Below are positions 13,043 to 31,262 of a DNA stretch of 46,678 nucleotides, piece by piece; position 1 is the stretch's first letter; the number at the start of each line of letters is the position of its first letter. The notes beneath the pieces are model-generated. The model saw nothing but the letters and a program-made list of their open reading frames with translations. It was not told the origin of the DNA and searched no databases. The DNA comes from a virus: the IMG/VR virus record IMGVR_UViG_3300042540_001044, positions 1 to 46,678 of that record, one strand, 5' to 3'. The position numbers and the translations under genes are program-made.

Positions 13043-13127
13043 GGTACGGTTGAACAGGTGGTGAGTTCCGCAGACTGTAAATCTGTCGCCTTCGGCTTTG
13101 TAGGTTCGATTCCTACCCGTACCACCA
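13043..13127 (+). tRNA. tRNA-Tyr (GTA), CCA encoded
   Basis: Acceptor GGTACGG pairs with CCGTACC. Anticodon loop CTGTAAA gives GTA. The long variable arm (CGCCTTCGGC region) is normal for bacterial tRNA-Tyr. T-arm GTAGG TTCGATT CCTAC, discriminator A, CCA at 13125-13127. It begins one base after tRNA-Asn. The last A of CCA is also the A of the ATG of the next gene. Confidence 0.93.
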
Positions 13128-13324
13128 TGATTGAAGTAACGCAATACCTGCACGGCCCGTCCCATCAAAGGTACGCAAGGTTTGTGGTTGAAGCACCCTT
13201 CTGGACAAAAGACGACTACGACCCAGACTGGTCGTGGTTCATCATCGCTCCAATCCTCAAGATGACAGAAGCTGACGAATCCTTTGACTGCGTCACACTA
13301 AAGCACTATCATCCTGTGCTATGA
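13127..13324 (+). CDS. Hypothetical 65-aa protein starting at the tRNA-Tyr 3' end
   Basis: The ATG at 13127 shares its A with the CCA end of tRNA-Tyr, so there is no leader or Shine-Dalgarno. The protein is aromatic (APFWTKDDYDPDWSWFII) and ends KHYHPVL. Function unknown. Translation must use a leaderless or processed transcript, or readthrough from upstream genes. The stop overlaps the next ATG. Confidence 0.6.
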   Translation: MIEVTQYLHGPSHQRYARFVVEAPFWTKDDYDPDWSWFIIAPILKMTEADESFDCVTLKHYHPVL

Positions 13325-13500
13325 GCAGGGAACAAGCAATGCATGACAAGAACTGGGTGGTGGTGTTCACGCATGACGTGGACGTGCCGCTCCACGAACG
13401 GACATTCAAGGACAAGGAATCTGCTGCTGCTTTCAAGGCAGAGCATGAGCACGGCAAGTTCGCCACCGTGCTCCCCATGAAGGGGACGTTCACTGAGTGA
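13321..13500 (+). CDS. Hypothetical 59-aa protein
   Basis: The ATG overlaps the previous stop (ATGA). Sequence includes NWVVVFTHDVDVPLHERTF and a Lys/Glu helix. This looks like a small alpha/beta domain. It is kept because of tight coupling and coding-like sequence. No family known. Confidence 0.6.
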   Translation: MSREQAMHDKNWVVVFTHDVDVPLHERTFKDKESAAAFKAEHEHGKFATVLPMKGTFTE

Positions 13501-13522
13501 AGAGCGGTTTGAATCCGAGTTC

Positions 13523-13726
13523 GTGATCACCGAACTCTTCGACCTGACCCGGGATGCACACGACTACAACATCAACTTCCGTGCGAACGGTCGCGGCTAC
13601 AAACTGGTGAGGTATGCTCCATTCAACAACAACCTGCACCTCTACTTTGGTAGCACCTACCTGATCCACGGTTGGTACCGCATGCAAAACTGGCGAATTC
13701 TGACAACAACCCAAGGAGAACAATGA
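13523..13726 (+). CDS. Hypothetical 67-aa protein
   Basis: GTG 13523 is the only usable start in frame after the preceding gene. No strong ribosome site is seen. The protein has ITELFDLTRDAHDYNINF and several aromatic residues (YLIHGWYRMQNW). Not recognised. Its last codons contain AAGGAG for the next gene. Confidence 0.55.
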   Translation: MITELFDLTRDAHDYNINFRANGRGYKLVRYAPFNNNLHLYFGSTYLIHGWYRMQNWRILTTTQGEQ

Positions 13727-14052
13727 ACAAGAAGATGCTACTCGCAAGCGCAACAGCAGGAACACTGTTCCTCGCTCTCGTGATGCTGATCACCGTGACG
13801 GTGGTCGACAACGCAGGGGCCTGGGGTTGCGGCCCGAACCGCAAGCCGCCGTGCGAAACCACGACGACTGTGCCGACAACGGTGCCCGAGACCACAACGA
13901 TCCCCACAACGACCGTGCCTGACACCACGACAACGACCAGCACGACCGTTCCTGAGACCACGACAACGACCACCACGACGATGCCGCCCGAGGTGTCCCT
14001 GAACCCGCCGTCGATCGAACGTCCGCCTGCCGATCTGGAGCTGGCCGGATGA
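13723..14052 (+). CDS. Secreted or anchored Thr/Pro-rich mucin-like protein, 109 aa
   Basis: ATG 13723 with AAGGAGA upstream. The first 35 residues form a signal sequence: MNKK, then a hydrophobic run (LFLALVMLITVTVV), then DNAGAW. After a Cys-containing segment (CGPNRKPPC), about 45 residues are almost only Thr, Pro, Val and Glu in VPETTT/VPTT units. Such stretches are extended and are often O-glycosylated in actinobacteria. The C-terminus is PPSIERPPADLELAG. Probably exported through the membrane; it might alter the cell surface. Confidence 0.7.
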   Translation: MNKKMLLASATAGTLFLALVMLITVTVVDNAGAWGCGPNRKPPCETTTTVPTTVPETTTIPTTTVPDTTTTTSTTVPETTTTTTTTMPPEVSLNPPSIERPPADLELAG

Positions 14053-14285
14053 TTCAGCCAGAGTGCGAGCTGGGCTACACCACAGAACAGCTCAAGGAAA
14101 TCATCGACAACATGCTTGAGTTCGACAGGTGGATGAACGGGCAGACGCGTGCCATCTGCGAAGGCAGAAAGTACAACCACGACACACGCGAATGGGAGGT
14201 CGCCTGCGACGGTGTTGCCCACGGCTTGGTCACATACCAAAGCGACGTGGAGCGCTACCTTGCAGGGGCCGAAGTCATCGACTAA
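14049..14285 (+). CDS. Hypothetical 78-aa protein
   Basis: ATGA overlap with the Thr/Pro-rich gene. Has three cysteines (residues 6, 37 and 53) and a helical segment TTEQLKEIIDNMLEFDRWM. No signal peptide is visible, so it is probably cytoplasmic. No known family. Confidence 0.62.
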   Translation: MIQPECELGYTTEQLKEIIDNMLEFDRWMNGQTRAICEGRKYNHDTREWEVACDGVAHGLVTYQSDVERYLAGAEVID

Positions 14286-14301
14286 AAATCCCAGAAAGGT
14301 G

Positions 14302-14330
14302 TTGACATGACTCAAACGGCTTGCTATTCT
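14302..14330 (+). promoter_or_regulatory. Strong sigma70-like promoter
   Basis: TTGACA at 14302-14307, a 17-base spacer, and TATTCT at 14325-14330. Transcription would begin about 14337 and cover the small membrane gene at 14355, the 14474 gene and then the structured non-coding region up to 15.1 kb. Confidence 0.65.
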
Positions 14331-14354
14331 TCTAGTCCCAAACAGGAGGTAGCA

Positions 14355-14477
14355 ATGCCGCAAGAGTATTACGTCAACCATCCCCTGCACATCATCCTCT
14401 GCCTGCTCACAGGTGGGCTGTGGCTGATCGTGTACATCCCTCTCCTGCTCAAGCAGGGCGCAATGAGGAAGTCGTGA
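14355..14477 (+). CDS. Small membrane protein, 40 aa
   Basis: ATG 14355 with AGGAGGT just upstream. The peptide begins MPQEYYVNHP and has one hydrophobic helix (LHIILCLLTGGLWLIVYIPL), ending KQGAMRKS. A single-pass peptide. It is the first gene after a strong promoter and its stop overlaps the next GTG. Confidence 0.62.
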   Translation: MPQEYYVNHPLHIILCLLTGGLWLIVYIPLLLKQGAMRKS

Positions 14478-14650
14478 AGAAGTTCTGGGCTGAGATCGAA
14501 GTCAACGACGACGAGATCCACGAGACCGAAGACCCCATGCTGTTCGATGTGGATGCCGGTGCGTTGCCGACGCTCACGAACGGCGCAACGAAGATCAGAT
14601 TCAAGGTACTGCGGTTCGTTGAAGGCGAACCGCGAGAGGAGAGCAAGTGA
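14474..14650 (+). CDS. Hypothetical 58-aa acidic protein
   Basis: GTG 14474 overlaps the previous stop. The protein is acidic (EIEVNDDEIHETEDPM) and looks like a short beta sheet (TKIRFKVLRFVEGE). Family unknown. It is the last gene before about 500 bases without a clear protein gene. Confidence 0.6.
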   Translation: MKKFWAEIEVNDDEIHETEDPMLFDVDAGALPTLTNGATKIRFKVLRFVEGEPREESK

Positions 14651-14691
14651 CCACAAGATACCAGATCCATCTTCCCTGACGCCTGAGTTCT

Positions 14692-14735
14692 GGGCACGTC
14701 GCAGCCTCTCCTCCCCACCTCCCTGCGGCGTGCCC
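14692..14735 (+). ncRNA. Hairpin with C-rich, anti-Shine-Dalgarno-like loop
   Basis: GGGCACGTCGCAG (14692-14704) pairs with CTGCGGCGTGCCC (14723-14735) through 13 pairs including one U-G. The 18-base loop is pyrimidine-rich with repeated CTCC/CCTCC units, the complement of GGAGG. ATCTTCTCCTT follows, so it could be a terminator for the 14302 promoter, or an sRNA-like element that pairs with ribosome sites. Confidence 0.5.
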
Positions 14736-14759
14736 ATCTTCTCCTTCGGAATGAGTCCC

Positions 14760-14974
14760 GAGGGCGACTAAAAAGCTGAAGCTTATCAAGAAGCTCAGCC
14801 CATCGCGTTACACAGTGCAGGTTCGAATCCTGCCCTCCCAACACTGATTCTCCGACCAAGCTCCTTAGGGCAGTCGGGTGTTCAGCAAACCAACCGACAT
14901 TCGGGGGGTCAGTGTTGGGAGGTAGCCGATGAAAGCGTGTCGATCCAACTCAGCACTGCTCACCGACAAGATCG
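14760..14974 (+). ncRNA. Structured RNA with tRNA T-arm and permuted acceptor-like stem
   Basis: Base pairing is seen at several places. A bulged 9-bp hairpin with a 6-base loop spans about 14774-14799. GCAGG TTCGAAT CCTGC at 14817-14833 is an ideal tRNA T-arm. The next 14 bases (14834-14847) are exactly complementary to 14909-14922, and TA follows, as after a tRNA 5' acceptor strand. Between them lie CCGAC/GTCGG and CCGA/TCGG stems. A 6-bp GAGGGC/GCCCTC pairing is an alternative. This order (T-arm, 3' acceptor, spacer, 5' acceptor) is that of permuted tRNA or tmRNA genes, but no anticodon or tag reading frame is found. Confidence 0.45.
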
Positions 14975-14991
14975 TAACGTCAGCAAATGGC

Positions 14992-15065
14992 CTCCCGGGT
15001 TGTTATTCCTTCCTGTCCTGGGAGCTGATGTCTGCGCCAAAGATGTTTGATGGTGTCGTCTTTGG
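14992..15065 (+). ncRNA. Two further hairpins before the tRNA-like element
   Basis: CTCCCGGG (14992-14999) pairs with CCTGGGAG (15017-15024) with one wobble. CCAAAGA (15037-15043) pairs with TCTTTGG (15059-15065). The stretch 14651-15078 has no convincing protein gene. An open frame runs through part of it, but this frame also crosses the tRNA-like element, which argues against coding. Confidence 0.4.
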
Positions 15066-15078
15066 CCCGGCGAAGGCC

Positions 15079-15150
15079 AGCGGTGTAGCTCAAATGGAAG
15101 AGCGCCTCCTAATCTTGGGGGAGACTGGGGTTCGATTCCCTGCGCCGCAC
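15079..15150 (+). tRNA. tRNA-like element with non-functional anticodon loop
   Basis: A 72-nt cloverleaf: acceptor GCGGTG/CGCCGC with an A-A mismatch at the first pair, TA at positions 8-9, D-arm GCTC/GAGC with GG in the loop, anticodon stem CCTCC/GGGGG, 4-nt variable loop, T-arm TGGGG TTCGATT CCCTG. The anticodon loop is TAATCTT, with A instead of the invariant U33 and a pyrimidine at 37, so decoding is doubtful. No CCA is encoded. Two bases after the discriminator an ATG begins. It could be a decayed tRNA or a processing signal. Confidence 0.6.
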
Positions 15151-15152
15151 AA

Positions 15153-15278
15153 ATGTACACCTACAAGTTCTCGTTCCACTGGACTGGTCGACCTTCGTTC
15201 ATCAGTCGCCGGTTCAACCCTCTCGGCCACGTGTCGGGGCCTGTCTGCTACGCCCCCAAGAACTGGTGGGTCATGTAA
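15153..15278 (+). CDS. Hypothetical 41-aa basic aromatic protein next to tRNA-like element
   Basis: ATG 15153 lies two bases after the tRNA-like discriminator and has no Shine-Dalgarno. The product begins MYTYKFSFHWTGRPSF and ends CYAPKNWWVM. It is basic and aromatic with no known family. Its stop is one base from the start of the ParB-like gene. Confidence 0.5.
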   Translation: MYTYKFSFHWTGRPSFISRRFNPLGHVSGPVCYAPKNWWVM

Positions 15279-15279
15279 A

Positions 15280-15666
15280 ATGGGATGCGAGTTCCTGTAC
15301 GACGAGAGCCACGGTAGAGTCCCGCCGCTGGAACGTCTCCTCGTCTACCAAATCCCCGTTTGGATAGCTAGATGGCTTGCCAACCCCGCCCGCCTTGATG
15401 AGGTAGGGCACGAAGGGGAGTATCTTGCTGTCCTGGCAGACGACATCGCTGCCCGAGGGATCGTAGAGCCACTGGAACTGATCGCTGACCCCACCCACAT
15501 TCGCCTTCAGGAGGGCCACCATCGCGTTCTCGCGGCCGAAAGCCTTGAGCTGGCCCATGTACCCGTCAGGGTGGCTGCGCAGCGTACACGGGCAATGAAG
15601 GGCCATAGAAGGCAACTCCCTCCCGGTGGCGCCCACCTTTGGCTACGATTGATGGAGCAGCTATGA
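15280..15666 (+). CDS. ParB/Srx-like domain protein, 128 aa
   Basis: ATG 15280 is chosen because upstream sequence is tRNA-like and because the ParB-like part starts here. Residues 20-60 have an IPV..ARWLANP segment and a helix leading to ADDIAARGIVEPLELI. Then LQEGHHRVLAAESLELAHVP gives the G-H-R motif of ParB/Srx-fold nucleotide-binding domains. ParB-like phage proteins may bind CTP or act as nucleases. There is no HTH domain, so plasmid-type partition is unlikely. The stop overlaps the next ATG. Confidence 0.75.
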   Translation: MGCEFLYDESHGRVPPLERLLVYQIPVWIARWLANPARLDEVGHEGEYLAVLADDIAARGIVEPLELIADPTHIRLQEGHHRVLAAESLELAHVPVRVAAQRTRAMKGHRRQLPPGGAHLWLRLMEQL

Positions 15667-15833
15667 TCGAACTGTACCCGCAAGTCGGGATCTTCGTCTG
15701 GAAAGAGAACGACGATCAAGTTCTTGAACCCAGAGAAACAACCAGCGAAGCGATCTTCGCTGACCGAAGAACTGGACCAGAGTGTGTCAGCGGTGGCTAC
15801 TGGATGCTCAACTACCGTGTGATAGTGCTATGA
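15663..15833 (+). CDS. Hypothetical 56-aa protein
   Basis: ATG 15663 in an ATGA overlap with the ParB-like gene. Has IELYPQVGIFVWKENDDQVL and ends GGYWMLNYRVIVL, probably a small beta-rich domain. It is followed by another ATGA overlap. Not recognised. Confidence 0.6.
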   Translation: MIELYPQVGIFVWKENDDQVLEPRETTSEAIFADRRTGPECVSGGYWMLNYRVIVL

Positions 15834-16126
15834 ACACCGACCTAGATCTGATTCTCGCACCATTTGGGCTGCACCCATCCCAAATGACCGAAGCGTTGGT
15901 GCGTTCTGGCGGTTATGACTTGCTCAACTATCAGATCACGTTCCGGCGACCACCCGTGGTGTCACAGGGCTTTGCCCAAGACCTTCCCCCATGGATACTC
16001 GGGGTTGAATGGACGTACCACTACAGCATAGATGGCCTCGAAACCCTTGACTTGAGCTTCTCCTACGCATACAAGCTGCACGAGAAACTCTACTTCCCAT
16101 CAGGAAGAAACTGGTTCAAGGCATGA
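15830..16126 (+). CDS. Hypothetical 98-aa protein
   Basis: ATG 15830 overlaps the previous stop. Contains LILAPFGLHPSQMTEAL and an aromatic beta-like half (WILGVEWTYHYSIDG, LSFSYAYKLHEKLYF). No motif for an enzyme. Stop overlaps the next start. Confidence 0.62.
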   Translation: MNTDLDLILAPFGLHPSQMTEALVRSGGYDLLNYQITFRRPPVVSQGFAQDLPPWILGVEWTYHYSIDGLETLDLSFSYAYKLHEKLYFPSGRNWFKA

Positions 16127-16317
16127 GCAACCACATCATGATCGTCAGCCGCACCGAACGAATCTGGTTCAGGAATTACGACGGCACAAGCCCTCTCGTC
16201 ATCCACAGACCGCTAGTGGCAGAGGAGTTCATGTCACCCGCGTTGCGTTGTCCAGAAAAAAGCCGTTTCGTCATGAGGTTACCCATCAACTGGCTAGCAG
16301 TAGCTCAGGCTGCGTAA
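16123..16317 (+). CDS. Hypothetical 64-aa protein, last rightward gene
   Basis: Begins in an ATGA overlap. SNHIMIVSRTERIWFRNY and IHRPLVAEEFM suggest a small alpha/beta protein. Its last 13 bases overlap the end of the leftward gene at 16305, making a tail-to-tail junction with no visible bidirectional terminator. Confidence 0.55.
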   Translation: MSNHIMIVSRTERIWFRNYDGTSPLVIHRPLVAEEFMSPALRCPEKSRFVMRLPINWLAVAQAA

Positions 16318-17177
16318 ACGAAATCGCTGAGCTTCACCTGGAACTTGGCGATATTAGTGGTCTGCCACTGCGACCCAGGCTGCACAGCGAACCCGTTGCT
16401 GCCACCACGGTCAATCACTACCGCGCCATAGGTAGCGAGAGCCTTCGCGATGACTTCGCATTCCCCTCCGAGCGCCACCATCTGCTGATAGGACTGGGAG
16501 GTGACAGGCAGGGTGACCAGAGAACCAGCCTTGATGCCGATCCCCTCCAGGTCACCGTCAGCGCCGTCATAGTTGGTGACGGTAATGCTCATGCGATGAG
16601 GGTTTTCCTTAGACCAAGGGGTCCACACATAAACGTGAGCCACATTATCTGTGGCCGTAGTCTCTCGACCGCTCACCAGAACACCATCTTCGAACCTGCC
16701 CCAACCCAAAGCGTTGTTCGTCAAATTGCTGTTGGGGTCAACGGTTTCGTCAAGCTGAATCGTCTCGTGGAAAACCTTCTTCGTAGCGTCAGGGAACCGG
16801 ACGATACAATGCCGGTCGTACATGGGGACCGGATGCCCAGTCTTCCAGTACCAACCAGACTTTGGTGCAGGTAGCTTCGCAAAGTTCTTCTGACCATACT
16901 TCAGATAGCCCCACGAAATGGAACGCATCGTCGTGGTGCCCCACTGCATGGGGCGGCCAGTCATCACGCCGTCATCCTGAGGCTTGCCACGATGAGCGTC
17001 AACCAGCTGATCCTTCTGGAAATCAGGAAGCGTGATAGAAGCCCCCGGCTGAACCTTGTCCAAGATACGTGGGGGATCCACGTTCTCAGCTGGCGGCACC
17101 GTCCAATACTGATAGTTGGTCATCCTGTCGGCAGTCTTCGTGCCAAACAAACTCTTCAAAAACTTGTACCAAGCCAT
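16305..17177 (-). CDS. Probable tail or surface-associated protein, 290 aa
   Basis: ATG 17177 is taken as start (GGTGG six bases upstream); TTG 17189 would add four residues. The protein is soluble, with beta-rich segments (NVAHVYVWTPWSKENPHRMS, TVTNYDGADGDLEG) and a C-terminal piece ALATYGAVVIDRGGSNGF that resembles parts of actinophage minor tail or carbohydrate-active proteins. It follows a glycoside hydrolase gene by overlap, so it may act on or bind surface glycans. No catalytic residues can be assigned. Confidence 0.6.
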   Translation of the reverse strand: MAWYKFLKSLFGTKTADRMTNYQYWTVPPAENVDPPRILDKVQPGASITLPDFQKDQLVDAHRGKPQDDGVMTGRPMQWGTTTMRSISWGYLKYGQKNFAKLPAPKSGWYWKTGHPVPMYDRHCIVRFPDATKKVFHETIQLDETVDPNSNLTNNALGWGRFEDGVLVSGRETTATDNVAHVYVWTPWSKENPHRMSITVTNYDGADGDLEGIGIKAGSLVTLPVTSQSYQQMVALGGECEVIAKALATYGAVVIDRGGSNGFAVQPGSQWQTTNIAKFQVKLSDFVYAA

Positions 17178-17178
17178 A

Positions 17179-18219
17179 TCAGCCACCAATTCTGATTGAA
17201 GTCGGGGCCTTCATGAGCTCATGGAACTTCGTGAGAACAGCCCCCGACAAAGGCACCCCACCGTTCAAACTCGTATCGAAATAGCAGGCACCGATCACGC
17301 TCTCGCTGCGCAGATGGTCATACCATGCCTGCATCTCAGCAGCCCCAGTGCTCGTGTGATCCTTGTTGCCCCACTCGCCGAGCGCGATCTTCAGATTCTT
17401 CGACTTGTAGAACGCCAAAGTGTTCTTCCACATCGGGGTCATCAACTCGGTCGAGGACGCCTCCACATAGTGGTCGATCCCAGCGAAATCCCAGGTGTTC
17501 GGCACCCACCAGTCAGCCGGGTTGCGACCCGAACGACTATCCCACGTCCACGCCATCAGACATGATGCGAACGCCACATTCGCATTCGCGCCAGTGCCAT
17601 TGAGCAGCGTCCTAACCCGAACCTGCATGGCACGCCAATCACCTTCAGTGTCCTGACCCTCATCAGGGAACGCTGTACCATTGCCGCCCTCAGGCTCATG
17701 ATGAGCCGTAAACCACACGGTCTTCCCAGTCGCCTTCAAGTTGTTAAACAACGCGGTCAGCTGCGTGTCCAGACTGCCAGCTGCAGTGTTCTTCCAACTA
17801 TCAGACAACTTGATCGACACCCACGGGACGCGCCCAGCAGCATGATCAGCCTTCACCGTGGACAGCAACGAAGACGCCTGACCGAGCTGCCAGAACGTGC
17901 GACGCACACCAACCGGAACTCCAGCCGCCGTCTCATGCGGAGTCGGCACACCATTCGAGTTGTAGGAGCAGCCCCAACGGATCTTCCCAGGCTGTGTATC
18001 GCCCGGGAACTTCGGAGTCCAAGTGCCCGTCGGCGGAGTCACCACAGGCGGTGGGGTCACAGGCTTATTAGCAAGCTCCGTGATGCGAACACCGAGCTGC
18101 TCAACGGCAATTGTCAGCTCAGAAAGCTTCTTTGAGTGGCCAGCCAGGCCATCTGCCAGATCAGAGTCAGCCTGCTTCAAGTCAGCGATAATCGGTTCAA
18201 GATCAGGATCAATTCCCAT
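17179..18219 (-). CDS. Glycoside hydrolase, GH26-like TIM barrel, probable tail-associated
   Basis: 346 aa, with ATG 18219 chosen for AGAGGAAA upstream. Residues 1-55 form a coiled coil (LKQADSDLADGLAGHSKKL), then a Pro-rich linker (TPPPVVTPPTGTW). The rest looks like a TIM-barrel hydrolase: WVSIKLSDSW, then VWFTAHHEPEGG with a likely acid/base Glu, FAGIDHYV, and KIALGEWGN with a likely nucleophile Glu. This two-Glu layout matches clan GH-A, nearest to mannanase-like GH26 enzymes. A coiled-coil stalk fits a fibre that degrades cell-envelope glycan. Confidence 0.75.
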   Translation of the reverse strand: MGIDPDLEPIIADLKQADSDLADGLAGHSKKLSELTIAVEQLGVRITELANKPVTPPPVVTPPTGTWTPKFPGDTQPGKIRWGCSYNSNGVPTPHETAAGVPVGVRRTFWQLGQASSLLSTVKADHAAGRVPWVSIKLSDSWKNTAAGSLDTQLTALFNNLKATGKTVWFTAHHEPEGGNGTAFPDEGQDTEGDWRAMQVRVRTLLNGTGANANVAFASCLMAWTWDSRSGRNPADWWVPNTWDFAGIDHYVEASSTELMTPMWKNTLAFYKSKNLKIALGEWGNKDHTSTGAAEMQAWYDHLRSESVIGACYFDTSLNGGVPLSGAVLTKFHELMKAPTSIRIGG

Positions 18220-18238
18220 GGTTTCCTCTTTCGTTCCC

Positions 18239-18693: not shown

Positions 18694-18698
18694 CGTGA

Positions 18699-20261: not shown

Positions 20262-20270
20262 GGATGTTAA

Positions 20271-20732: not shown

Positions 20733-23242
20733 AGCTTGCGTAGTTCCTCGATCAAGGCATCGCTGCCGTCCACTGCGTAGTCGTTCGGTAGGGCCATCAC
20801 TGATGAGCCTCCGAGGTGCAGTCTAACAGGGAGCGAGCCTCGATGCGAGAGAAGAATCCCTTTGAGCTTTGAGACTTCGGCTGTGTCTTTGATGAGCCCA
20901 TCGGGGAGACGGATCTTAAACTCTTCTGTCTCATCGATTGCGACACTAACATTCATTTCAGGGCACAGCTCCAAGTCAATCAAAATGTAGTCGCGCTCAC
21001 TATGACTACTCGTAGCAGGACGCAACCTCAACCGGGCAACCGTATCCTCCTCCAAAGAACCACGCACCCTCTCATCCCACACCTTCGGGAACGCAATCAC
21101 GTTCACCGAAATCTCATGGTTCGAGATCAAGAAGTGAGCCATCTCCGCACCACCACGAGTGGTCCGCACATTGAAATCAGAGACCAAACCAGCAACCCAC
21201 TTCGACTGGCCATCCTCCAAGTCAGCAAGATCAGTCAGATCCACCTCTGAATTCTCAAACACCCACGACTCCAACCCGTCCATAGGATGCCCAGACACAT
21301 ACACGCCCATGACCTTGCGCTCCAAGTTCAGACGCTGACGCTCCGAATACTCCACCTTCGGAACATTGAAGAACCTGTCCTCGTCATCCTCGAACAGGCT
21401 CACCAACCCCTTCTCCCGCTGCTTCTTCGCCTTGCGAGCCGACGCGAGGATCTCCTCCACCACCCCGATCAAACCCAGACGAGAGTAACCGAACTCGTCC
21501 ATTGCGCCAGCCTCAACCAGCGGAACAAACACCCTCTTGTTCATAGCGTCACGAATCATCATTCGCAGCACAAAATCGTACATGTCCTTGAAGGGCCCGC
21601 CCTGGTTGCGCTCGTCGACCACCTGATCACCGAAGCCCTCACCCACCTGAGCGATCGACGACAAACCCACCCGGATCTCATCAGCGCTCGCAGTGAACGC
21701 CACCTCAGACTTGTTCATCGAAGGCAGACGAACAGGAATACCCATCCGTCGAGCCTCAGCCAAGAAGATCGACGCCTTCTCCAAAGCAACACCCCTACAC
21801 AGGGCCGCCATGTAGAACGTCGGATAGTTCGCCTTCAGATACGCCGTCTGATACGCCGTCATCGCGTACCCATACGCATGCGATTTGTTGAAGCCATAAT
21901 CTGCGAAGTCGGCGATCATCCCAAACAGCTTCTCGGAGAACTCGTTGCTGTAACCGTTCGCCACACAACCCTTGATGAAGCCGTCCTTCTCGGCTGCCAT
22001 CTTCTCCTTTATCTTCTTCCCCATAGCCTTACGGAGGTTGTCCGCCTCTGCGAGCGAGTACCCGGCGAACTTCTGCGCGATCTGCATCACCTGTTCCTGA
22101 TAGATGCACAGGCCCTGAGTGTCAGCCAGGATCTCTCGTGCATCATCGTGGAAGTATTCTACAGGCTTGCGTAGATTCTTGCGGTCGGCGTAGTCGTTGT
22201 GCATGTTCGCCGCCATCGGTCCCGGCCGGTACAGCGCGACAAGCGCAGCGATATGGTCGAACGTCTCCGGGTTGAGACGCACCACCAGCTCACGCATCGC
22301 CTTCGACTCCAACTGGAACACACCGATCGTCTCGCCATGACGCAACAGCTCGAACGTCTTCGGGTCATCCAGCGGGATCGAATCGATATCGACCACACCC
22401 AAACCCTGGCCCTCGATCAGACGCAGACACTCAGTGATCACATCCAGGTTCCGCAACCCCAAGAAGTCCATCTTGAGCAGACCCAGAGCCTCCACCCCAT
22501 GCATGTCATACTGGGTGGCAACAGGAGCGTCCTTGCCCTTCTTCTGCACAGGGACAATGTCCATGAGCGGCACATCAGAGATCACCACAGCCGCAGCGTG
22601 GATAGAGTCGGCGCGCTTCAACCCCTCCAAACTCTTCGCTGCATCAATGATCTGCTTAGCCTCGGGGTCATTCGCATAGATGTCCCTGAACTTCTGAGAC
22701 TGAGCGAACTGTGCCTCATACCCCTCGGTACGCTCCAGGCAGGCAGCCAGAGGAGCGTCACGCCCCATCAGAGCAGGCGGCAACGTCTTCGAGATCTTGT
22801 CGCCGACGATGAACGGATGGCCGAGCACCCTTGCAGCGTCACGCACCGCGGCACGAGCCTTGATCGTGAAGAACGTGACGATCTGAGACACATGGTCCTC
22901 ACCGAACCGCTGCGACGTGTAAGCAATCATTGCTTCACGCCCGCTCGCCTCCATATCCAAATCGATATCCGCCATTGACATCCCCTTGCCAAGCTGCAGG
23001 CTCAACCCAATGGGATAGCTGGTCGGCTTCTCATTGGTGATGCCAATTACGTAGGCAACCGAGGATTGCTGCGGGTTAGCTACGGTAACGCCTCTGTCAA
23101 ATACATCCAGATACACGCGCTCGATACCCAGGTGCTCGATGGCCTTCAGTTCATCCTTTAGCCATCCCTTATCGACTTCGTCCCGACGAGGGGAGAACAT
23201 TACGAGCCCGGCGATTGTCGAGCACCTCTTGGTATCGTTCAT
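20678..23242 (-). CDS. dnaE: DNA polymerase III alpha (DnaE), C-terminal part
   Basis: 854 aa if begun at ATG 23242 (ATAGGAA upstream); ATG 23200 is an alternative. The first 90 residues are poorly conserved. From SMADIDLDM (about 22980) the match is full: the catalytic Asp pair, then GREAMIAY, IVTFFTIKARAAVRDAARVL, and KMDFLGLRNLDVI with the third catalytic Asp. Fingers and a C-terminal OB-like region follow (VKLEY..GHPMDGLESW style). If the sequence from 22969 is joined to the upstream part ending at 24034, the active site reads SMPDIDLD and the total length is about 1170 aa, normal for DnaE. It is therefore either spliced or a two-piece polymerase. Confidence 0.85.
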   Translation of the reverse strand: MNDTKRCSTIAGLVMFSPRRDEVDKGWLKDELKAIEHLGIERVYLDVFDRGVTVANPQQSSVAYVIGITNEKPTSYPIGLSLQLGKGMSMADIDLDMEASGREAMIAYTSQRFGEDHVSQIVTFFTIKARAAVRDAARVLGHPFIVGDKISKTLPPALMGRDAPLAACLERTEGYEAQFAQSQKFRDIYANDPEAKQIIDAAKSLEGLKRADSIHAAAVVISDVPLMDIVPVQKKGKDAPVATQYDMHGVEALGLLKMDFLGLRNLDVITECLRLIEGQGLGVVDIDSIPLDDPKTFELLRHGETIGVFQLESKAMRELVVRLNPETFDHIAALVALYRPGPMAANMHNDYADRKNLRKPVEYFHDDAREILADTQGLCIYQEQVMQIAQKFAGYSLAEADNLRKAMGKKIKEKMAAEKDGFIKGCVANGYSNEFSEKLFGMIADFADYGFNKSHAYGYAMTAYQTAYLKANYPTFYMAALCRGVALEKASIFLAEARRMGIPVRLPSMNKSEVAFTASADEIRVGLSSIAQVGEGFGDQVVDERNQGGPFKDMYDFVLRMMIRDAMNKRVFVPLVEAGAMDEFGYSRLGLIGVVEEILASARKAKKQREKGLVSLFEDDEDRFFNVPKVEYSERQRLNLERKVMGVYVSGHPMDGLESWVFENSEVDLTDLADLEDGQSKWVAGLVSDFNVRTTRGGAEMAHFLISNHEISVNVIAFPKVWDERVRGSLEEDTVARLRLRPATSSHSERDYILIDLELCPEMNVSVAIDETEEFKIRLPDGLIKDTAEVSKLKGILLSHRGSLPVRLHLGGSSVMALPNDYAVDGSDALIEELRKLCFSATGITSASHSSAPS

Positions 23243-23972
23243 GTTTCCTATCCAGGTATCGCGTGGCTGAATCATACAACCAGATGATGTTATCGGCGTG
23301 AGACTCCAGAGAGAAGACATTGCCCGTCGGGTAGATGCCTCCAGCGCGGGGGAGGTTGATGTTCATCCACTCCAAGAGCGCCTTCGGTCCAGTAATCTTG
23401 AGCCGGTAGCCATCAGGAACAGCCGACTTGGCAATCGACCCATCTCCGTCAACGAAGCCACGGATGAAGCTCCTAATGAACTCTGGCTCACTGATCGCAG
23501 GCGGCGACAAGGAGAATGTCTTCCTCTCTGTGCAGCCCAAGTTGATCAAGTCATCCACCAGAAGATCAGAGGTGATCTGGAGACGCGCCACGGGACAAAC
23601 CCCATAGGTGGTCTGCTGATCGAAGCAGCCGATCTTGTAGGTCGCTTGTAGATCATCCCTGAGCTTCTCTAAGTGGTGCATGTCCTTCTGGTTGAGGTCA
23701 ACCTTCAGGACAGACTGCCCATTGAACTTGACGATAGCCCCATCAGCATACAGGAACCCTAACCAGTAAGCCTTTTCTGGTGTATCGAGCACCGAAAAAT
23801 AGGCATCATCCAAGAAGTACTTGCGCGAGTTGGTCTTGTTCGATCTTCGCCGTGTGCCGCTCTTCTTTAGGATGTAGTAGACCCTGTCGGTGCCAAGGCC
23901 AAGCTCTCGACCCACCTTAGCGGCCGACAATCCACTCTGATACAAGCTGACCACCTGTTCGATCGTATCCAT
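23169..23972 (-). CDS. LAGLIDADG homing endonuclease inside dnaE
   Basis: 267 aa, ATG 23972 with AGGGAG eight bases upstream. An N-terminal helix-turn-helix (IEQVVSLYQSGLSAAKVGREL, read in two halves) is followed by two LAGLIDADG helices: YWLGFLYADGAI near residue 70 and SFIRGFVDGDGSI near residue 190. The acidic residues needed for cutting are present. The gene lies exactly between the two parts of dnaE, at the coding position of the catalytic Asp motif. Its last codons overlap the start of the dnaE C-terminal frame. Confidence 0.9.
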   Translation of the reverse strand: MDTIEQVVSLYQSGLSAAKVGRELGLGTDRVYYILKKSGTRRRSNKTNSRKYFLDDAYFSVLDTPEKAYWLGFLYADGAIVKFNGQSVLKVDLNQKDMHHLEKLRDDLQATYKIGCFDQQTTYGVCPVARLQITSDLLVDDLINLGCTERKTFSLSPPAISEPEFIRSFIRGFVDGDGSIAKSAVPDGYRLKITGPKALLEWMNINLPRAGGIYPTGNVFSLESHADNIIWLYDSATRYLDRKHERYQEVLDNRRARNVLPSSGRSR

Positions 23973-25279
23973 AGAACAACTCCCTTGTGTTGCTATGGAT
24001 ATCGTCAAACGAAATGTCAAAATCAACCTGATCAGGCATCGAGATGCGAGACGGGTTCAGGAACCGTTCGAACAGCAGGTCGTACTTGATCGGGTCCACG
24101 TCAGTGATCCCCAGGCAGTACGAGACAGCGCAACCAGCAGCCGAACCACGTCCGGCTCCGGTACGGATACCGACGGACTTGGCGTGGCTCACGATGTCCC
24201 ACATGATCAAGAAGTACGAACTGAAGCCCATGTCAATGATCGTTCGCAGCTCGAATGCGAGCCTTGAAACAACCTCGTCAGGCATGTCCGGCCACCGACG
24301 GTCCGCACCCTTAAACACCAGATCGGTCAAGAACGCATCCACATCCCCATCGAACCAGTCGGGCACCGGGAACACCGGCAAGTGAGGCTTGTCGAAATCC
24401 AGCTTCACGTTCGCACGCTCAGCGATCAACAACGTGTTGTCACACGAAGAAGGCACCTCGCTGAACAGCGAACGCATCTCCTCGGCGGTCTTCAAGTAGT
24501 GCTGGTCAGACTCGAACTTGAACCGTTCAGTGTCCGACATGAGCGACTTCGTCTGCGAACACAGCAGAATGTCATGCCCGAACGCGTCCTCTTGATGCAC
24601 ATAGTGGCTGTCGTTCGTAGCCAGCAGCGGGGCCTGGAGCTTCGCTGCCACATCAAGCAGCGCACTCATCGTGTTTCTCTGCGCGCTGATCCCATGATTC
24701 TGGATCTCGACAAAGAAGTTGTCCTTGCCAAAGATGTCCTGCAGACGTGCAGCAATCTTCAAAGCCTCAGCAGGCGACTCGTTCAACAGGGCCTGGAGCA
24801 CCTGACCGCCAAGGCAACCGCTCGTAGCGATCACACCTTCGCTGTGCTCCTCCAACAGCTCCCAATCGAGACGCGGCTTGTAGTAGTACCCTTCAAGGTA
24901 GGCACGGGACGACAGCTTGACGAGGTTCTTGTAGCCCTCGTTGTTCTCTGCCAGCAACGTCAAATGGTAGTTGACCTTGTGGCCCTCCTCGGTGGTGCCA
25001 CCAGAGTCGTCCTCACGGGAACGCCGCGTCGGTCGCTCTGTGCGATGCTCCTTCGCCATGTACGCCTCGAACCCGATGACCGGGTTGACATCATGGGCTA
25101 GGCAAGCGAGATAGAAGTCGACCACCCCGCTCATCGTCCCGTGGTCGGTGATACCGAGAGCTTTCTGACCGTCAGCTACGGCAGCTTCCACGAAGGGTTC
25201 GATCTTCGCTGCGCCATCAAGGATGCTGTGCTCTGTGTGGCAGTTAACAATGAAGATGAGTAAAGCTACTCTTCTTCAT
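23917..25279 (-). CDS. dnaE: DNA polymerase III alpha (DnaE), N-terminal PHP part; start unclear
   Basis: From CHTEHSILDGAAKI at about 25242 the frame is a clear PHP domain (TDHGTMSGVVDFY, IGFEAYM, HYV) followed by palm motifs GAGRGSAAG, YCLGITDVDP and FERFLNPSRISMPD. After SMPD (24034) it reads on into non-DnaE sequence until a stop at 23917. No ATG, GTG or TTG lies in this frame before the first PHP motif. An ATG at 25279 starts MKKSSFTHLHC and stops at TAA 25246, one base out of frame; a +1 shift at TGT-T-AAC would join it to the PHP frame. GTG 25191 is the first normal start but would remove a metal-site His. Confidence 0.8.
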
Positions 25280-25286
25280 TATGGAA

Positions 25287-26596: not shown

Positions 26597-26901
26597 GCAG
26601 CGAAAGCCCGCTCCAGGTCGGCCTCAAAAGCCGAACGATGACGCTTGCGATGAAGTCGCACACCCACACGGTCAGCAAGACCGCCCCGCACACAGTCATC
26701 ATCATCGTTCCTGATCGCGTCGTCCAGGCATTCGATACGCACCGCACAGGTTTCGCAGATCGCCTTGGCTTCATCGACACGATCAGAATCAAACCACAAA
26801 TCGATAGGCGTGTCAACGCATGCAGCGTACGCCCGCCACTCATCGTCAGCCATAGCAGACAGCTTCGCGATGAACTCGTTCAACTCTGCGTCGAGACTCA
26901 A
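26593..26901 (-). CDS. WhiB-family iron-sulfur regulator
   Basis: 102 aa from TTG 26901. Four cysteines in WhiB order: AACVDT near residue 28, then the CETC pair in AKAICETCAV, then ECLDDAI. The turn motif is VRGGLAD in place of GVWGG, followed by the basic R-H-R-K-R-H tail. WhiB proteins bind a 4Fe-4S cluster and sigma factor SigA, and phage versions can block host gene control. This family is limited to actinobacteria and their phages, which fixes the host group. Confidence 0.88.
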   Translation of the reverse strand: MSLDAELNEFIAKLSAMADDEWRAYAACVDTPIDLWFDSDRVDEAKAICETCAVRIECLDDAIRNDDDDCVRGGLADRVGVRLHRKRHRSAFEADLERAFAA

Positions 26902-27272
26902 ATGAGGCTCCTGACAACCATCTCCGGCTTGGGCTTCTCGATGTCAGCCGGGGTCTCATCAGGGCCCTCAGCTGCCGCAGCCTCAGCTGCCGCCCGACGA
27001 GCCAACATCTGCTCACGGATCGTCCCAGACTGCCCCTCGTTACGGAGACTGAAGTAGCCTTCGTCAACGACATACTGGAGCATCTCCTGGAGATCCCTGA
27101 ATGCCTGCTGCAAACGAGGATTCTTCTCCAAGCTGAGCATCATGGACCGCATGATCGCCACGTCCTCAGCCTGCTCGCGGTTCTCCAAGAACGTCAGCTC
27201 CATGCTGGCCTCAGAGAACTGGACTGACGTGATGAACACGTCTGCTTCAACGATGTCCTGCATCATGCTCAT
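26898..27272 (-). CDS. Hypothetical 124-aa protein
   Basis: ATG 27272 overlaps the previous stop. N-terminal half: ADVFITSVQFSEASMELTF, a strand pair; middle helical (LSLEKNPRLQQAFRDLQEML); C-terminus an Ala-rich helix (RRAAAEAAAAEGPDE) and a PKPEMVV tail. No enzyme motif. The gene lies in the replication operon between WhiB and the primase. Confidence 0.65.
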   Translation of the reverse strand: MSMMQDIVEADVFITSVQFSEASMELTFLENREQAEDVAIMRSMMLSLEKNPRLQQAFRDLQEMLQYVVDEGYFSLRNEGQSGTIREQMLARRAAAEAAAAEGPDETPADIEKPKPEMVVRSLI

Positions 27273-27712
27273 GACGCCACCCCGCTGCTCAGCTTCACGT
27301 CGAGGAACATGGGCTTGTTGTTGACCCCATTAGTAGAGGGACTCACCGGGAGACTGAACAACGACTCCTGGTTCTCATCAACCACAGGGATCTTTGTCTC
27401 GATCATCTCGGTCACACCAGTGACCACCTTGCCGAGCTGGTCGTACAACCACTTAGCCTTGTCCAGATCGAGAACCTCAACATCCTCCACGGTGAACGTG
27501 TTCGCGCGGGACAGCAGACCTGTGGTCTTGCCCACCGAGAACTTTGCATCGGCGACACGAGCGGTCACGAAGAACCCATACAGGTCATCGTTTGCCATCT
27601 GCGCGCCCTTCTCGACATCCACATCGAATGCCCCGGAGAAGCGGCCCGCATAGCTGACCACCTCCTTGCCGTCGAATACCTCAACGCCAGCCTTGAGCTC
27701 CTTTGACATCAT
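27269..27712 (-). CDS. Hypothetical 147-aa protein
   Basis: Tandem ATG codons at 27712 and 27709. The sequence is beta-rich with KAGVEVFDGKEVVSYAGRF and DDLYGFFVTARVADAKF, and a helix DKAKWLYDQLGKVVTGV. It may be a DNA-associated accessory protein given its neighbours, but no family is recognised. It overlaps the next gene in an ATGA. Confidence 0.65.
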   Translation of the reverse strand: MMSKELKAGVEVFDGKEVVSYAGRFSGAFDVDVEKGAQMANDDLYGFFVTARVADAKFSVGKTTGLLSRANTFTVEDVEVLDLDKAKWLYDQLGKVVTGVTEMIETKIPVVDENQESLFSLPVSPSTNGVNNKPMFLDVKLSSGVAS

Positions 27713-28005
27713 TCCACCTCGCTGGGGTACGCGTAAGCCCAGGTGCCAGGAGCGAACAACGCAATGTCCTTCTCTCCTGCGTCACGAATCAAGAGAATGC
27801 CATTCTCGATACCGAACGACTCGCCAGCTGCGACAACCACCTCGGTAACCGGAGGGGCCGCCACCGTTGCAGCATCGGTGAGCTGTGCGGCAGCATCAGC
27901 GATCGGGTTGAAGGAGGGCGTGGGAGCGCCCATGATGCCACTCAGAGAGGGCTGAGGTCGGGGAGGGATAGGGGACGAATTGTCTCTCAACACTACAGTA
28001 ATCAC
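27709..28005 (-). CDS. Hypothetical 98-aa protein
   Basis: GTG 28005 with AAGGAGA upstream. A Pro/Ala-rich N-terminal half (SPIPPRPQPSLSGIMG, AAAQLTDAATVAAPPV) precedes a compact C-terminal strand region (GIENGILLIRDAGEKDIALF). Possibly an unstructured tail plus a small domain. Not recognised. Confidence 0.6.
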   Translation of the reverse strand: MITVVLRDNSSPIPPRPQPSLSGIMGAPTPSFNPIADAAAQLTDAATVAAPPVTEVVVAAGESFGIENGILLIRDAGEKDIALFAPGTWAYAYPSEVE

Positions 28006-28015
28006 TTGCTTCTCC

Positions 28016-30931
28016 TTATGGTCTGGGTGTGTTCAACACCCGGCGTACATCTTCGTCAGATGGGAACATCTGATCTTCATCACCTGTCCGATATCGGTAG
28101 ATGACTTGCTCCCATGAATGGGAGTTGCGGGCATACACCCGCTCCCTCATCACCCTCGACACGTCCGAGTCGGAGTTCGGGATGATCGCCAGGGTCTTGG
28201 GTGCGAACTGGTACATGATCTCTGCACCCGTAGCACCGTCCCTGGACTTGAGGATCTTCATGTGGATCTCGCCGGACTGCTCATCCACTGGGCGTCCTGG
28301 CTGCTGATCCGGCTTCCAGATCGCGAGCATCATGTCGCTCGTCTCCTCGATGGCACCGGAGGACTTCGCCATGTCAGCAGACAGCTCCTTGCCGAACGAG
28401 CCGGTCCTATTGACCTGATGCGGCGCGTAGATGACGATCTGCTTGCGCTTCGCGATGCCCTTAAGGCCCATGATCGCCGAGGTAGTGCGGTCATACTCGT
28501 CACCAGTGAACCCGCGCGCATAGTAGCCAAGATAGTCGATGCACACGAAGTCAGGCAAACTGCCCGTCTCGTATTCGTACTGCTCGATGCACGCCTCAAG
28601 GTCATCTTCAGTGATCTTGTTCTTGTCAACGAGGAAGAACTTGTCGGACCAGTAGCGGATCGTGTCCTCGTTGGTAGCCCAAGGGTCGTAGAACGAATGG
28701 ATACGGCGGGCACGCTCGAACCACTCGTTACGCGTCTGCTCAAGTGAGACAAAAAGAATCTTGATGTCCGGCTTCAGCATCGACATACGGTGAAACAAGT
28801 TGAGACTAATCAAAGTCTTGCCGACGTTCGTCTTCGCGATCAGCGTCACCACCTGGCCCGGCAACATCCCGTGACGCATCTGCGAGTCGATCTCACGCAC
28901 GTTCCAACGCAAACCCACAAGGTTCGGGTTGCCTTCGATCTCCGTCCAACGCTCATACGCCTCAGACACCGAGACCAACAGGCCGCCTACCGACTTGCGA
29001 AACAACCAGTCGAAATCGTCCTTGTTCTTGCCGTAGTCAACGATCCAATCGCTGACATCGATCTTCTTCCCCTTGTTCTCATCCGGGATCTCCACGATCC
29101 TCGACCGAGGACCCAGCTTCGACGCCAACTTCTCTGCCCCAGCGCGCCCAGCCTGATCGTTATCGAAACAGATGTGGACACGCTTCGCCTCAGAGATATG
29201 CTTGCCCCACGAATCCTGCCACGACGACACCCCCGGCAAACCCATCGCCGAGAACCCGAGCTGATCGAGCGCCATCGCATCGAACTCGCCCTCAGTCAAC
29301 ACAATGCTGTCGTCGTAGATCCCTGCATCAGAGTTGAAAAGCCGCGCCGACTGCCCATGAGGCGTCAGATACTTGCCCTTCATGTCCTTGCCACGGATCT
29401 GGATCGTCTGCCCCATCAACAGATACGGGATCGTGATCTTATCCTTGAAGAAATCGTTGCCCCACTTGTCGACGAGACCAGTGCGGATCATGTCCTCAAC
29501 ACTGTGCCCCGCGTTCACCAGATGGGTGACGAGCCCACCCTCTGCCGGAGCCCAACCCAGCCTGAACTTCTCGATCGTCTCATTGGTGAGACCACGCTTC
29601 TCGCGCAGATACTGGTAGGCGGCAGGAGCGTTGCTCAGCTGCTCGTAGTAGAACCTGGAAGCCGTGTTGTAGATCCCCAGCAGCACATCATCAGGGAGAT
29701 CATCGTCCTTCGCCTCCGGGTTGGCGAACTTGATGGGCGCGTCACCGAAATGCTTGCGGATCTTGTTGAAGCCACCGGTCTCGCCGCACACGAAACAATT
29801 GCCTGTCAAAATGTTGTCTTCGAGCGCGAAGTTGCCGTACCCGTCCACGACCGCACAGAACACCTCCTCGACGCGGTCGGTCGACTGGATAGACTCAACA
29901 ACCCAGCCCTTGCGGTTGTACTTCGCGCCTCGATTGAATCGCTCCCTGTGCTCTTCAATCAGGAAGAAGTCCTCACTCAAATCCTCGGAAGCGAGCCGCA
30001 CACCAAAGATTGAGGAAGGCCCATCACTGTAACCCGTCCGCACCTGCTCAAAGATGCCGTAGGTGACAATGCCGAGCACATTGCACAGGTCACGCACGTA
30101 CTCCAAGACTGCACGATCACAGCAATGGAGAACCGGAGAGTCAGCGGTAGATGAGTAGCAACCATCTGCCGCGAAGTAGCCAGCGAGCCAGCCGAACAGA
30201 TAGGACCGCGACTCAGAAAGGGATGGAAGCTCCGTCTTATAGAAGCCTGGGAACCCACCCATCCTCAGCACTGGCTTGCCGGTTGACGACTCCCTGGTTG
30301 AGCTTGGATGATCGGGGAAGTATCTCAGCAGCGCATCGTCCTTGGGGGCATTGAAGTATGCCACCGAAGAACCGTGAGCCAATGTCCCGTCGCCGAAGAT
30401 GAAGCCTCGCACAATGCCGTGATGACTTACCAAGGGGTGAGAATGAGCAACGGACTGGACCTGAGCGCCGACGAGGCGCATTCCAGGCTTTAGGTCAGAG
30501 GTAAGAACCTCTCTGCGCCTGTCACGATCCTTGCCAGACTTCACGAACCAGCGATGCGCTGGGGTTGCATGAATGGTCTTCTTGACGCCATTTCGAGTCA
30601 ACGTAATAGCGTCAAGCTTCTGTTCACCGAAGGACAAGACCGGGGCCTCGCGCCAAGTACATACCCCGTTTGGAGCAGCGACCAAGAGTTCGGCGGTCGT
30701 GCCAGCGAGTGAGCCGATCTCTTTGATGCCGCCCCTAGTAATGATCCGAGTGCCAGCAGCCAGGCAGTTGAAGACTCCGAGCGCGCCGCTTGACTCATCG
30801 ATGTTGATGTAGAGCCGACCCCGATCACTCGGGTCTTCCCCATGGAACCAGCAGGTCGTGTGGACGTTGCTCTCGTTGGCTGGCTTGAGCTGGATGTCCT
30901 TGGACTCCAGATAGTCGATGATGTCGTTCAA
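28016..30931 (-). CDS. Primase-helicase (DnaG/DnaB-like), interrupted by an intein
   Basis: 971 aa as coded and about 648 aa after splicing. TTG 30931 overlaps the previous stop. Zinc finger: CWFH and, after the intein, CFVCGE. TOPRIM: VLTEGEFDAMAL and HICFDNDQAGRAGAEKL. Helicase: Walker A LIAKTNVGKT and Walker B DFVCIDYLGYY, then IYAPHQVNRTG with a helicase arginine/glutamine region. This is a T7 gp4-like two-function protein that unwinds DNA and makes primers. It feeds the DnaE polymerase encoded downstream in the same direction. The intein splits the zinc finger between its two Cys pairs. Confidence 0.92.
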   Translation of the reverse strand: MNDIIDYLESKDIQLKPANESNVHTTCWFHGEDPSDRGRLYINIDESSGALGVFNCLAAGTRIITRGGIKEIGSLAGTTAELLVAAPNGVCTWREAPVLSFGEQKLDAITLTRNGVKKTIHATPAHRWFVKSGKDRDRRREVLTSDLKPGMRLVGAQVQSVAHSHPLVSHHGIVRGFIFGDGTLAHGSSVAYFNAPKDDALLRYFPDHPSSTRESSTGKPVLRMGGFPGFYKTELPSLSESRSYLFGWLAGYFAADGCYSSTADSPVLHCCDRAVLEYVRDLCNVLGIVTYGIFEQVRTGYSDGPSSIFGVRLASEDLSEDFFLIEEHRERFNRGAKYNRKGWVVESIQSTDRVEEVFCAVVDGYGNFALEDNILTGNCFVCGETGGFNKIRKHFGDAPIKFANPEAKDDDLPDDVLLGIYNTASRFYYEQLSNAPAAYQYLREKRGLTNETIEKFRLGWAPAEGGLVTHLVNAGHSVEDMIRTGLVDKWGNDFFKDKITIPYLLMGQTIQIRGKDMKGKYLTPHGQSARLFNSDAGIYDDSIVLTEGEFDAMALDQLGFSAMGLPGVSSWQDSWGKHISEAKRVHICFDNDQAGRAGAEKLASKLGPRSRIVEIPDENKGKKIDVSDWIVDYGKNKDDFDWLFRKSVGGLLVSVSEAYERWTEIEGNPNLVGLRWNVREIDSQMRHGMLPGQVVTLIAKTNVGKTLISLNLFHRMSMLKPDIKILFVSLEQTRNEWFERARRIHSFYDPWATNEDTIRYWSDKFFLVDKNKITEDDLEACIEQYEYETGSLPDFVCIDYLGYYARGFTGDEYDRTTSAIMGLKGIAKRKQIVIYAPHQVNRTGSFGKELSADMAKSSGAIEETSDMMLAIWKPDQQPGRPVDEQSGEIHMKILKSRDGATGAEIMYQFAPKTLAIIPNSDSDVSRVMRERVYARNSHSWEQVIYRYRTGDEDQMFPSDEDVRRVLNTPRP
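29798..30766 (-). mobile_element. Intein in the primase zinc finger, 323 aa
   Basis: Residues 56-378 of the precursor. It starts CLAAGTRIITRGG (block A), has TPAHRWFV with the block B Thr-x-x-His, and carries two LAGLIDADG-type helices, VRGFIFGDGTL and FGWLAGYFAADGC. It ends FALEDNILTGN followed by Cys+1 of CFVCGE. The residue before the last Asn is Gly rather than the usual His. Flanking residues: VFN|C...N|CFVC. Confidence 0.9.
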
Positions 30932-31188
30932 AGTGGGTTCGCGTCCCTGTTGATAGCAATGGCCCGATAGTTGCTCGGCAAGCGCTGAGGCTCCTGGAAC
31001 ACGTCAAAGCTCTCCAGCTTGAACGTGATCTCTGGGATGTCATGGATCGTGCTGATCGACTGGGAGTTACCCAGGTCGTAGATCTTCTCGGTCGGGATGT
31101 TGAGATGCCCCGGCTCGTTCGACTGGATCCGGTCAATGGACCAGTCCCCGTCAGCATCCATGAAGATTTTGCCTGATCTAATTGTCAT
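30928..31188 (-). CDS. Hypothetical 86-aa protein next to tRNA-like element
   Basis: ATG 31188 lies one base after the discriminator of the tRNA-like element and has no Shine-Dalgarno. The protein is acidic and beta-rich (FMDADGDWSIDRIQSNE, IPEITFKLESFDVFQE). It ends in a TTGA overlap with the primase. So the replication operon starts at this tRNA-like boundary unless transcripts read through from upstream. Confidence 0.62.
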   Translation of the reverse strand: MTIRSGKIFMDADGDWSIDRIQSNEPGHLNIPTEKIYDLGNSQSISTIHDIPEITFKLESFDVFQEPQRLPSNYRAIAINRDANPL

Positions 31189-31189
31189 A

Positions 31190-31258
31190 GCGCGCAGACG
31201 GGATTCGAAACCCGCAACTCCGTCTCGTTCGACGGCGTGATGCTTTCACCACTGCGCT
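31190..31258 (-). tRNA. tRNA-like element before the primase operon
   Basis: Reading leftward, acceptor GCGCAG pairs with CTGCGC (first position mismatched); D-arm GTGA/TCAC with only a 5-base loop and no GG; anticodon stem CCGTC/GACGG with a 6-base loop GAACGA; 4-nt variable region; T-arm GCGGG/CCCGT with 8-base loop TTTCGAAT. No CCA encoded. The anticodon loop cannot decode normally. The ATG of the next gene is at 31188. Decayed tRNA or a processing signal. Confidence 0.5.
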
Positions 31259-31262
31259 GAGA

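Follow-up and report, generated by a model that had tools for sequence, protein, structure and literature searches.

Start codons abutting tRNAs and tRNA-like elements in phage genomes point to leaderless messages released by tRNA maturation

Background

The tRNA punctuation of animal mitochondrial transcripts was reportedly described by Ojala, Montoya and Attardi in 1981. As at the phage junctions presented here, the tRNAs of animal mitochondria abut open reading frames (ORFs), and their excision yields mRNAs with little or no leader and no Shine-Dalgarno (SD) site. In animal mitochondria this is the general mode of expression of the whole genome, whereas in phages it would concern a minority of genes, through a cleavage that we infer and in a register (after C74) that is borrowed from Actinobacteria. 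Non-decoding tRNA-shaped RNAs that mark a cut by RNase P or RNase Z are also known, namely the t-elements of plant mitochondria and the mascRNA of MALAT1. The tRNA shape is proposed to mark a cut in the same manner at two elements of the phage genome analyzed here; the known RNAs set the 3' ends of transcripts, whereas the phage elements would set the 5' end of the mRNA that follows.

Actinobacteria commonly contain leaderless mRNAs and translate them (PMC4633059), and many appear in 5'-end maps (PMC3848588, PMC4681348). In Mycobacterium, Streptomyces and Propionibacterium they have, like the genes at the phage junctions, an AUG or GUG near the 5' end and no SD (PMC4633059, PMC3848588, PMC4681348). 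Most of them arise from transcription that starts at the start codon, and a TANNNT box lies some 6 nt before that codon. No such box precedes the tRNA junctions, and their 5' ends would therefore have to come from processing. In Propionibacterium acnes and Streptomyces coelicolor, cleavage of tRNA precursors separates the two C's of CCA and leaves processed 5' ends downstream (PMC3848588, PMC4681348). A further route is that of MazF, which makes leaderless mRNAs in E. coli by endonucleolytic cutting, according to work cited in PMC3848588. The proposed phage route would likewise be endonucleolytic; the ends made by MazF, a stress toxin, carry a 5'-hydroxyl, however, whereas a tRNA-maturation enzyme would leave 5'-monophosphate ends.

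The DNA studied here (hereafter the window) comprises positions 1 to 46,678 of IMG/VR record IMGVR_UViG_3300042540_001044 (46,678 nt, one strand). Among named phages, the nearest matches to its DnaE belong to Streptomyces phages, at 37-38% identity. An earlier note on this DNA had drawn attention to three cloverleafs that abut ATG codons, a tRNA-Tyr and two tRNA-like elements that we name TL1 (15079-15150, + strand) and TL2 (31258-31190, - strand), and had suggested that tRNA 3' processing there gives rise to leaderless mRNAs.

Results and Discussion

Three junctions in the window

ARAGORN and Rfam agree with the earlier note on the three cloverleafs, and the ATGs are found where it had placed them. 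A tRNA-Asn(GTT) at 12966-13041 on the + strand (ARAGORN and Rfam, 68 bits) is followed after a single base by tRNA-Tyr(GTA) at 13043-13127 on the same strand (ARAGORN and Rfam, 51.6 bits). The discriminator A73 of tRNA-Tyr is base 13124 and its CCA occupies 13125-13127; base 13127 doubles as A76 of the CCA and as the A of an ATG. This ATG opens a 65-codon ORF without an SD (13127-13324, +), called from the sequence, for which a tblastn search against known phages found no relatives. A cut between the two C's of the CCA would leave an mRNA with the 5' end CAUG.

TL1 scores 35.3 bits against Rfam RF00005 (cut-off 29) and is called tRNA-Asp(ATC) by ARAGORN. Its acceptor stem has six sound pairs (15080-15085 with 15143-15148) and an unpaired 5'-terminal A, its 3' end is A73-C74 at 15149-15150, and its predicted fold has an energy of -30.6 kcal/mol. 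The anticodon loop, UAAUCUU, has A and not U at position 33 and thus holds no usable anticodon. The ATG at 15153, 2 nt past C74, opens a 41-codon ORF without an SD (15153-15278, +; called from the sequence), and a ParB-like ORF starts directly after it at 15280. A cut after C74 would here give an mRNA beginning AAAUG.

Just upstream of TL1, at 14816-14925 (+), lie a T arm joined to an acceptor-stem 3' half (GCAGGTTCGAATCCTGCCCTCCCA) and a 22-bp inverted repeat, followed by TGGGAGG-TA-GC, the matching acceptor 5' half. This arrangement resembles a tRNA- or tmRNA-like gene in circular permutation. Rfam beta_tmRNA gives just 8.9 bits at 14770-14950, and the alanine G-U pair is missing, so the reading as a permuted tmRNA was rejected. 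A reading of the elements as integration sites was also rejected: there is no integrase among the scanned proteins, and the T-arm sequence at 14820-14845 has no viral match.

TL2 (31190-31258, -) scores 26.9 bits against Rfam RF00005, below the cut-off of 29, with E = 3.9e-5 for the record. Its anticodon loop has 6 nt, its D loop lacks GG and its T loop has 8 nt in the Rfam alignment, which sets it apart from the loops of standard tRNAs. Six acceptor pairs are sound, the 5'-terminal A is unpaired, and the 3' end is G73-C74. By its score and E-value, TL2 is related to tRNAs without being a standard one. The anticodon loops of TL1 and TL2 are both broken, in line with the view of the earlier note that they cannot decode. 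For each of the two elements, about 0.5% of dinucleotide shuffles fold into the same cloverleaf shape. A strong hairpin without a U-run (31262-31309, -; predicted fold) lies immediately upstream of TL2.

Behind TL2, an 86-codon ORF without an SD (30928-31188, -), identified by homology, begins with an ATG at 31188, 1 nt past C74; a cut after C74 would yield an mRNA beginning UAUG. From residue 1 its product aligns at 46-47% identity with the N-terminus of a 405-residue GX15bay protein (E = 3e-12), and over residues 1-62 it shares 64.5% identity with a full-length protein of the syntenic relative G002. Because the alignment with tail-tube-like phage proteins begins at residue 1, this ATG is the true start. 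By the same homology, the ORF encodes the N-terminal part of a tail-tube-like protein and is a truncated copy. Its GX15bay and G002 homologues are preceded by good SDs (AAGGAGG and AGGAGG, respectively). The ORF is wedged between TL2 and a primase-helicase gene with an intein (28016-30931, -; Pfam), which lies downstream of both and whose TTG start is overlapped by the stop of the ORF.

Counted from the discriminator, the offsets to the ATG are 3, 4 and 3 for tRNA-Tyr, TL1 and TL2. With an ATG or GTG opening an ORF of at least 40 codons, three allowed offsets and a per-position background of 0.016, the joint chance for the three window junctions is about 1e-4 (1e-5 for ATG only), taking the junctions as they were picked by the earlier note. 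That note had contrasted the three ATGs, without an SD, with most other genes, and this holds: none of the three has an SD match of at least 4 nt, whereas about four-fifths of the predicted genes do. Codon usage gives clear coding support to the TL2 ORF (score +14.7), slight support to the TL1 ORF (weakly positive) and none to the tRNA-Tyr ORF (about 0). A TANNNT -10 box spaced for a leaderless promoter is absent at all three junctions. Elsewhere in the window, recA (11644, +) and a Cas4/RecB-like nuclease gene (35124, -) have no SD, but their ATGs are preceded, at a distance of exactly 6 nt, by TACAAT or TATGTT. The two boxes are likely leaderless promoters, and since both genes combine a TANNNT box with the lack of an SD, leaderless expression seems open to this phage.

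Start codons behind tRNAs in other phages

A tRNA survey across DnaE-bearing phage records singled out Streptomyces phage Wofford, NC_048722, in which many starts abut tRNAs. Offsets were examined in seven tRNA-rich Streptomyces phages (Wofford, Karimac, Yaboi, StarPlatinum, Tomas, Sushi23 and the more distant Annadreamy), for ORFs of at least 40 codons, with offset 2 denoting N73-C74-AUG, that is, a start at position 75. An ATG or GTG stands at offset exactly 2 behind 32 of 284 tRNAs, against 3.4 expected (p = 4e-21). When related flanks are collapsed to 99 independent contexts, 15 have a start at offset 2 (p = 1.4e-12); offsets 1 and 4 are empty, and starts at offsets 3 and 5 are few. Offsets 4-9 are depleted (8 seen vs 20 expected), and a free SD is frequent among the genes that begin at offset 20 or beyond from these tRNAs. 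SD-like tetramers occur at 12 of the 32 offset-2 junctions, where they are located within tRNA stems. All 35 junctions with an offset of 2 or 3 in the phage set lack a TANNNT box.

Among tRNAs that do not encode CCA, C74 is kept in 274 of 277 in Streptomyces phages, 54 of 56 in two mycobacteriophages and 2 of 16 in other phages; its retention in actinophages is what a cut that requires or fixes C74 would predict. Mycobacteriophage Alice has an ATG at offset 3 in two or three of its 25 tRNAs. In mycobacteriophage Myrna none of 36 tRNAs has a start at offset 2 or 3, and the junction habit is thus not universal among actinophages. None of 74 tRNAs of non-actinophages has a start at offset 2, but this is a weak control, given that 58 of them encode CCA, which forbids that offset; the stretch of KVP40 examined contained no tRNAs.

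BLAST sorts the junction genes into 16 families, two of which (StarPlatinum Glu-ttc and Annadreamy Ile) resemble translated neighboring tRNAs and are to be ignored. The 48-codon ORF behind tRNA-Lys(ttt) in Karimac and Yaboi has no alternative in-frame start. In the ORF behind tRNA-Leu(caa), the next start does not come before codon 23-36, and the N-terminus is conserved across four phages. A lipoprotein-like gene of Wofford (MKRMRIVAGAAMLLVLVGC, MKRMR..) is annotated with a start 18 nt later than the abutting ATG, and the charged N-region of its signal peptide is kept only from the abutting ATG. The MKRMR.. lipoprotein gene has tRNA-Phe as its fusion partner in Wofford and Sushi23, whereas in Yaboi the partner is tRNA-His. 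At the tRNA-Leu(gag) of Wofford, the record itself annotates a gene start at the base right after the annotated tRNA end. On the strength of these sequence features, several of the junction start codons must be genuine.

Several small junction proteins look like one KOW- or SH3-like family (..GDKVEFI.GP..GK.G..), so that some junctions may have spread by means of a duplicated tRNA-gene unit. In a number of Streptomyces and Mycobacterium phage contigs (L108, L148, L154, L160, L169, L180 and L183), many T-arm elements are present that are uncalled by ARAGORN. Several of them have a common GGGTCGA...CGGTTATC motif and lie directly behind a tRNA, and they recur in phages of both genera.

Syntenic relatives

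Single-sequence scans of viral contigs with the primase, the ssb-like protein, RecA and DnaE gave no useful close relatives; syntenic relatives were found with a two-sequence DnaE alignment. L006 (G002) and L005 (G001), then L085 and L087, have the gene order nuclease-primase-DnaE-RecA in common with the window phage, the primase-helicase serving as the synteny anchor. A tRNA-Tyr is present in G001 and G002 and a tRNA-Asn in G001. The earlier note had proposed looking in related phages for cloverleafs beside start codons, and the two relatives give opposite answers. In G001 the tRNA-Tyr reads ..CTCCCA-CT-ATG and leads into a 44-aa membrane ORF without an SD, which is the same junction with a different gene. 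In G002, by contrast, the gene that follows tRNA-Tyr is preceded by an SD and lies at a normal distance, at least 20 nt away; conservation of the junction thus does not extend to every relative.

Among the relatives, a single element might correspond to TL2. At L006:5588-5656, between the ssb-like gene and the primase, lies a cloverleaf with a TL2-like D arm and without a T-loop consensus, a shape that 0.05% of shuffles adopt; behind it come an SD and the start codon of the primase. Upstream of the primase in L005, the intergenic element at L005:4236-4316 folds with a closing stem of 7 bp and may form a pseudoknot (GCUGUGC with GCAUAGC); the ATG of an SD-less ORF lies about 9 nt behind it. The regions upstream of the primase in L085 and L087 hold plain hairpins. 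With a cloverleaf in L006, a different fold in L005 and hairpins in the other two, TL2 was rejected as a conserved pre-primase RNA; it is at best partly conserved.

Proposed mechanism and alternative explanations

We propose that a tRNA or tRNA-shaped RNA would be cotranscribed with the gene behind it, and that the host's tRNA 3'-maturation enzyme, which in Actinobacteria cuts after C74, would free the tRNA. The downstream mRNA would then begin at the start codon or 1-2 nt before it (exactly at AUG for N73-C74-AUG), and this leaderless mRNA would be translated without an SD. In the earlier note the cut falls behind the discriminator, whereas the 5'-end maps published for Actinobacteria place it after C74; a C74 cut yields the very ends, AAAUG and UAUG, that the note had predicted at TL1 and TL2. 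Cotranscription, cutting and translation at the junctions are all deduced from sequence, and the C74 cut is published for host tRNAs only.

We assign a probability of about 0.63 to the reading of the junctions as tRNA-mRNA fusions ('tRNA punctuation') that release leaderless mRNAs. The core of the earlier proposal, that tRNA 3' processing generates leaderless mRNAs, draws strong support from the fixed register in Streptomyces phages and from the repeated tRNA-Tyr junction in a syntenic relative; for the window phage itself, cleavage and translation are predictions. As a phage strategy, tRNA punctuation appears well supported, and it is likely to operate at the tRNA-Tyr of the window. That the non-decoding TL1 and TL2 are kept as processing signals is a plausible conjecture. 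Within the window the model fits best at tRNA-Tyr, with its recurring junction, and at the TL2 gene, with its true start; the evidence is thinnest at TL1. Some observations speak against the model: the window junctions stand at offsets 3, 4 and 3, whereas the Streptomyces phages show offset 2 exactly; the tRNA-Tyr junction is absent from G002; and the tRNA-Tyr ORF lacks both codon-usage support and relatives. A broader version, in which actinophages generally use tRNA maturation to make mRNA 5' ends and the window phage keeps TL1 and TL2 solely for release, is tentative and in our view somewhat doubtful.

Compactness of the genome and decay could also account for the window: TL1 and TL2 would be dying tRNA genes, their ATGs adjacent by packing or chance, and the genes behind them poorly translated or not translated. 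The sub-threshold score of TL2, the broken anticodon loops of both elements, the truncated state of the tail-tube-like copy and the lack of codon-usage support for the tRNA-Tyr ORF are all in keeping with this. However, packing cannot explain a peak at a single offset in Streptomyces phages with nothing at offsets 1 and 4, the tRNA-Tyr junction recurs in G001, and TL1 and TL2 are still full cloverleafs with C74, so that we regard this explanation as rather unlikely. Former tRNAs decaying beside an already dependent start would be a natural route to TL1 and TL2, and one that fits both the signal and the decay readings.

Translation might, on the other hand, proceed without any processing, by coupling or SD-independent initiation inside longer transcripts, in which case the nearness of the tRNA would be irrelevant. 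Actinobacteria tolerate weak or absent SDs, and the tetramers at the offset-2 junctions could be seen as favoring such initiation, though they sit inside tRNA stems. Initiation of this kind predicts no fixed register, whereas starts at offsets 4-9 are depleted and genes from offset 20 onward often have a free SD; we consider it improbable. Least probable is that TL1 and TL2, despite their unusual form, function as tRNAs and that their adjoining starts are incidental. The Rfam score of TL1 and its ARAGORN call speak for this, but TL1 lacks U33, and TL2 departs from a working tRNA in its anticodon, D and T loops alike.

Release of messages by tRNAs is already known from mitochondria, and the new part would be its occurrence in bacterial viruses. 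A literature search, with most subscription journals outside its scope, found leaderless mRNAs made by tRNAs unreported in bacteria or phages, and novelty is accordingly provisional. If correct, tRNA punctuation in phages would extend the mitochondrial principle to viruses of bacteria and account for the many phage tRNAs found right before small genes, as well as for misplaced start annotations behind tRNAs. Clusters of phage tRNAs would then serve a second purpose beyond decoding. It would also open to test how Actinobacteria obtain leaderless mRNAs by routes other than initiating transcription at the start codon, and at which sites the enzyme that cuts within CCA, as yet without a name, is active.

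Other features of the window

Intein-like insertions with LAGLIDADG or splicing motifs are found on the minus strand in the primase-helicase (28016-30931) and between two DnaE parts, with coordinates also at 33244-35124 and 23169-25191; a third such insertion is probable in the nuclease gene. At the contig end (46258-46678), a direct repeat, GCTCAGCAGACGGCGCTCAACCCGAAG..., occurs in two copies about 240 bases apart and may reflect a repeat protein or a feature of the assembly. On the + strand at 3502-6393, a MoxR-like ATPase gene is followed by a ViaA-related gene of the VWA family, a RavA-ViaA-like pair that is kept in L006.
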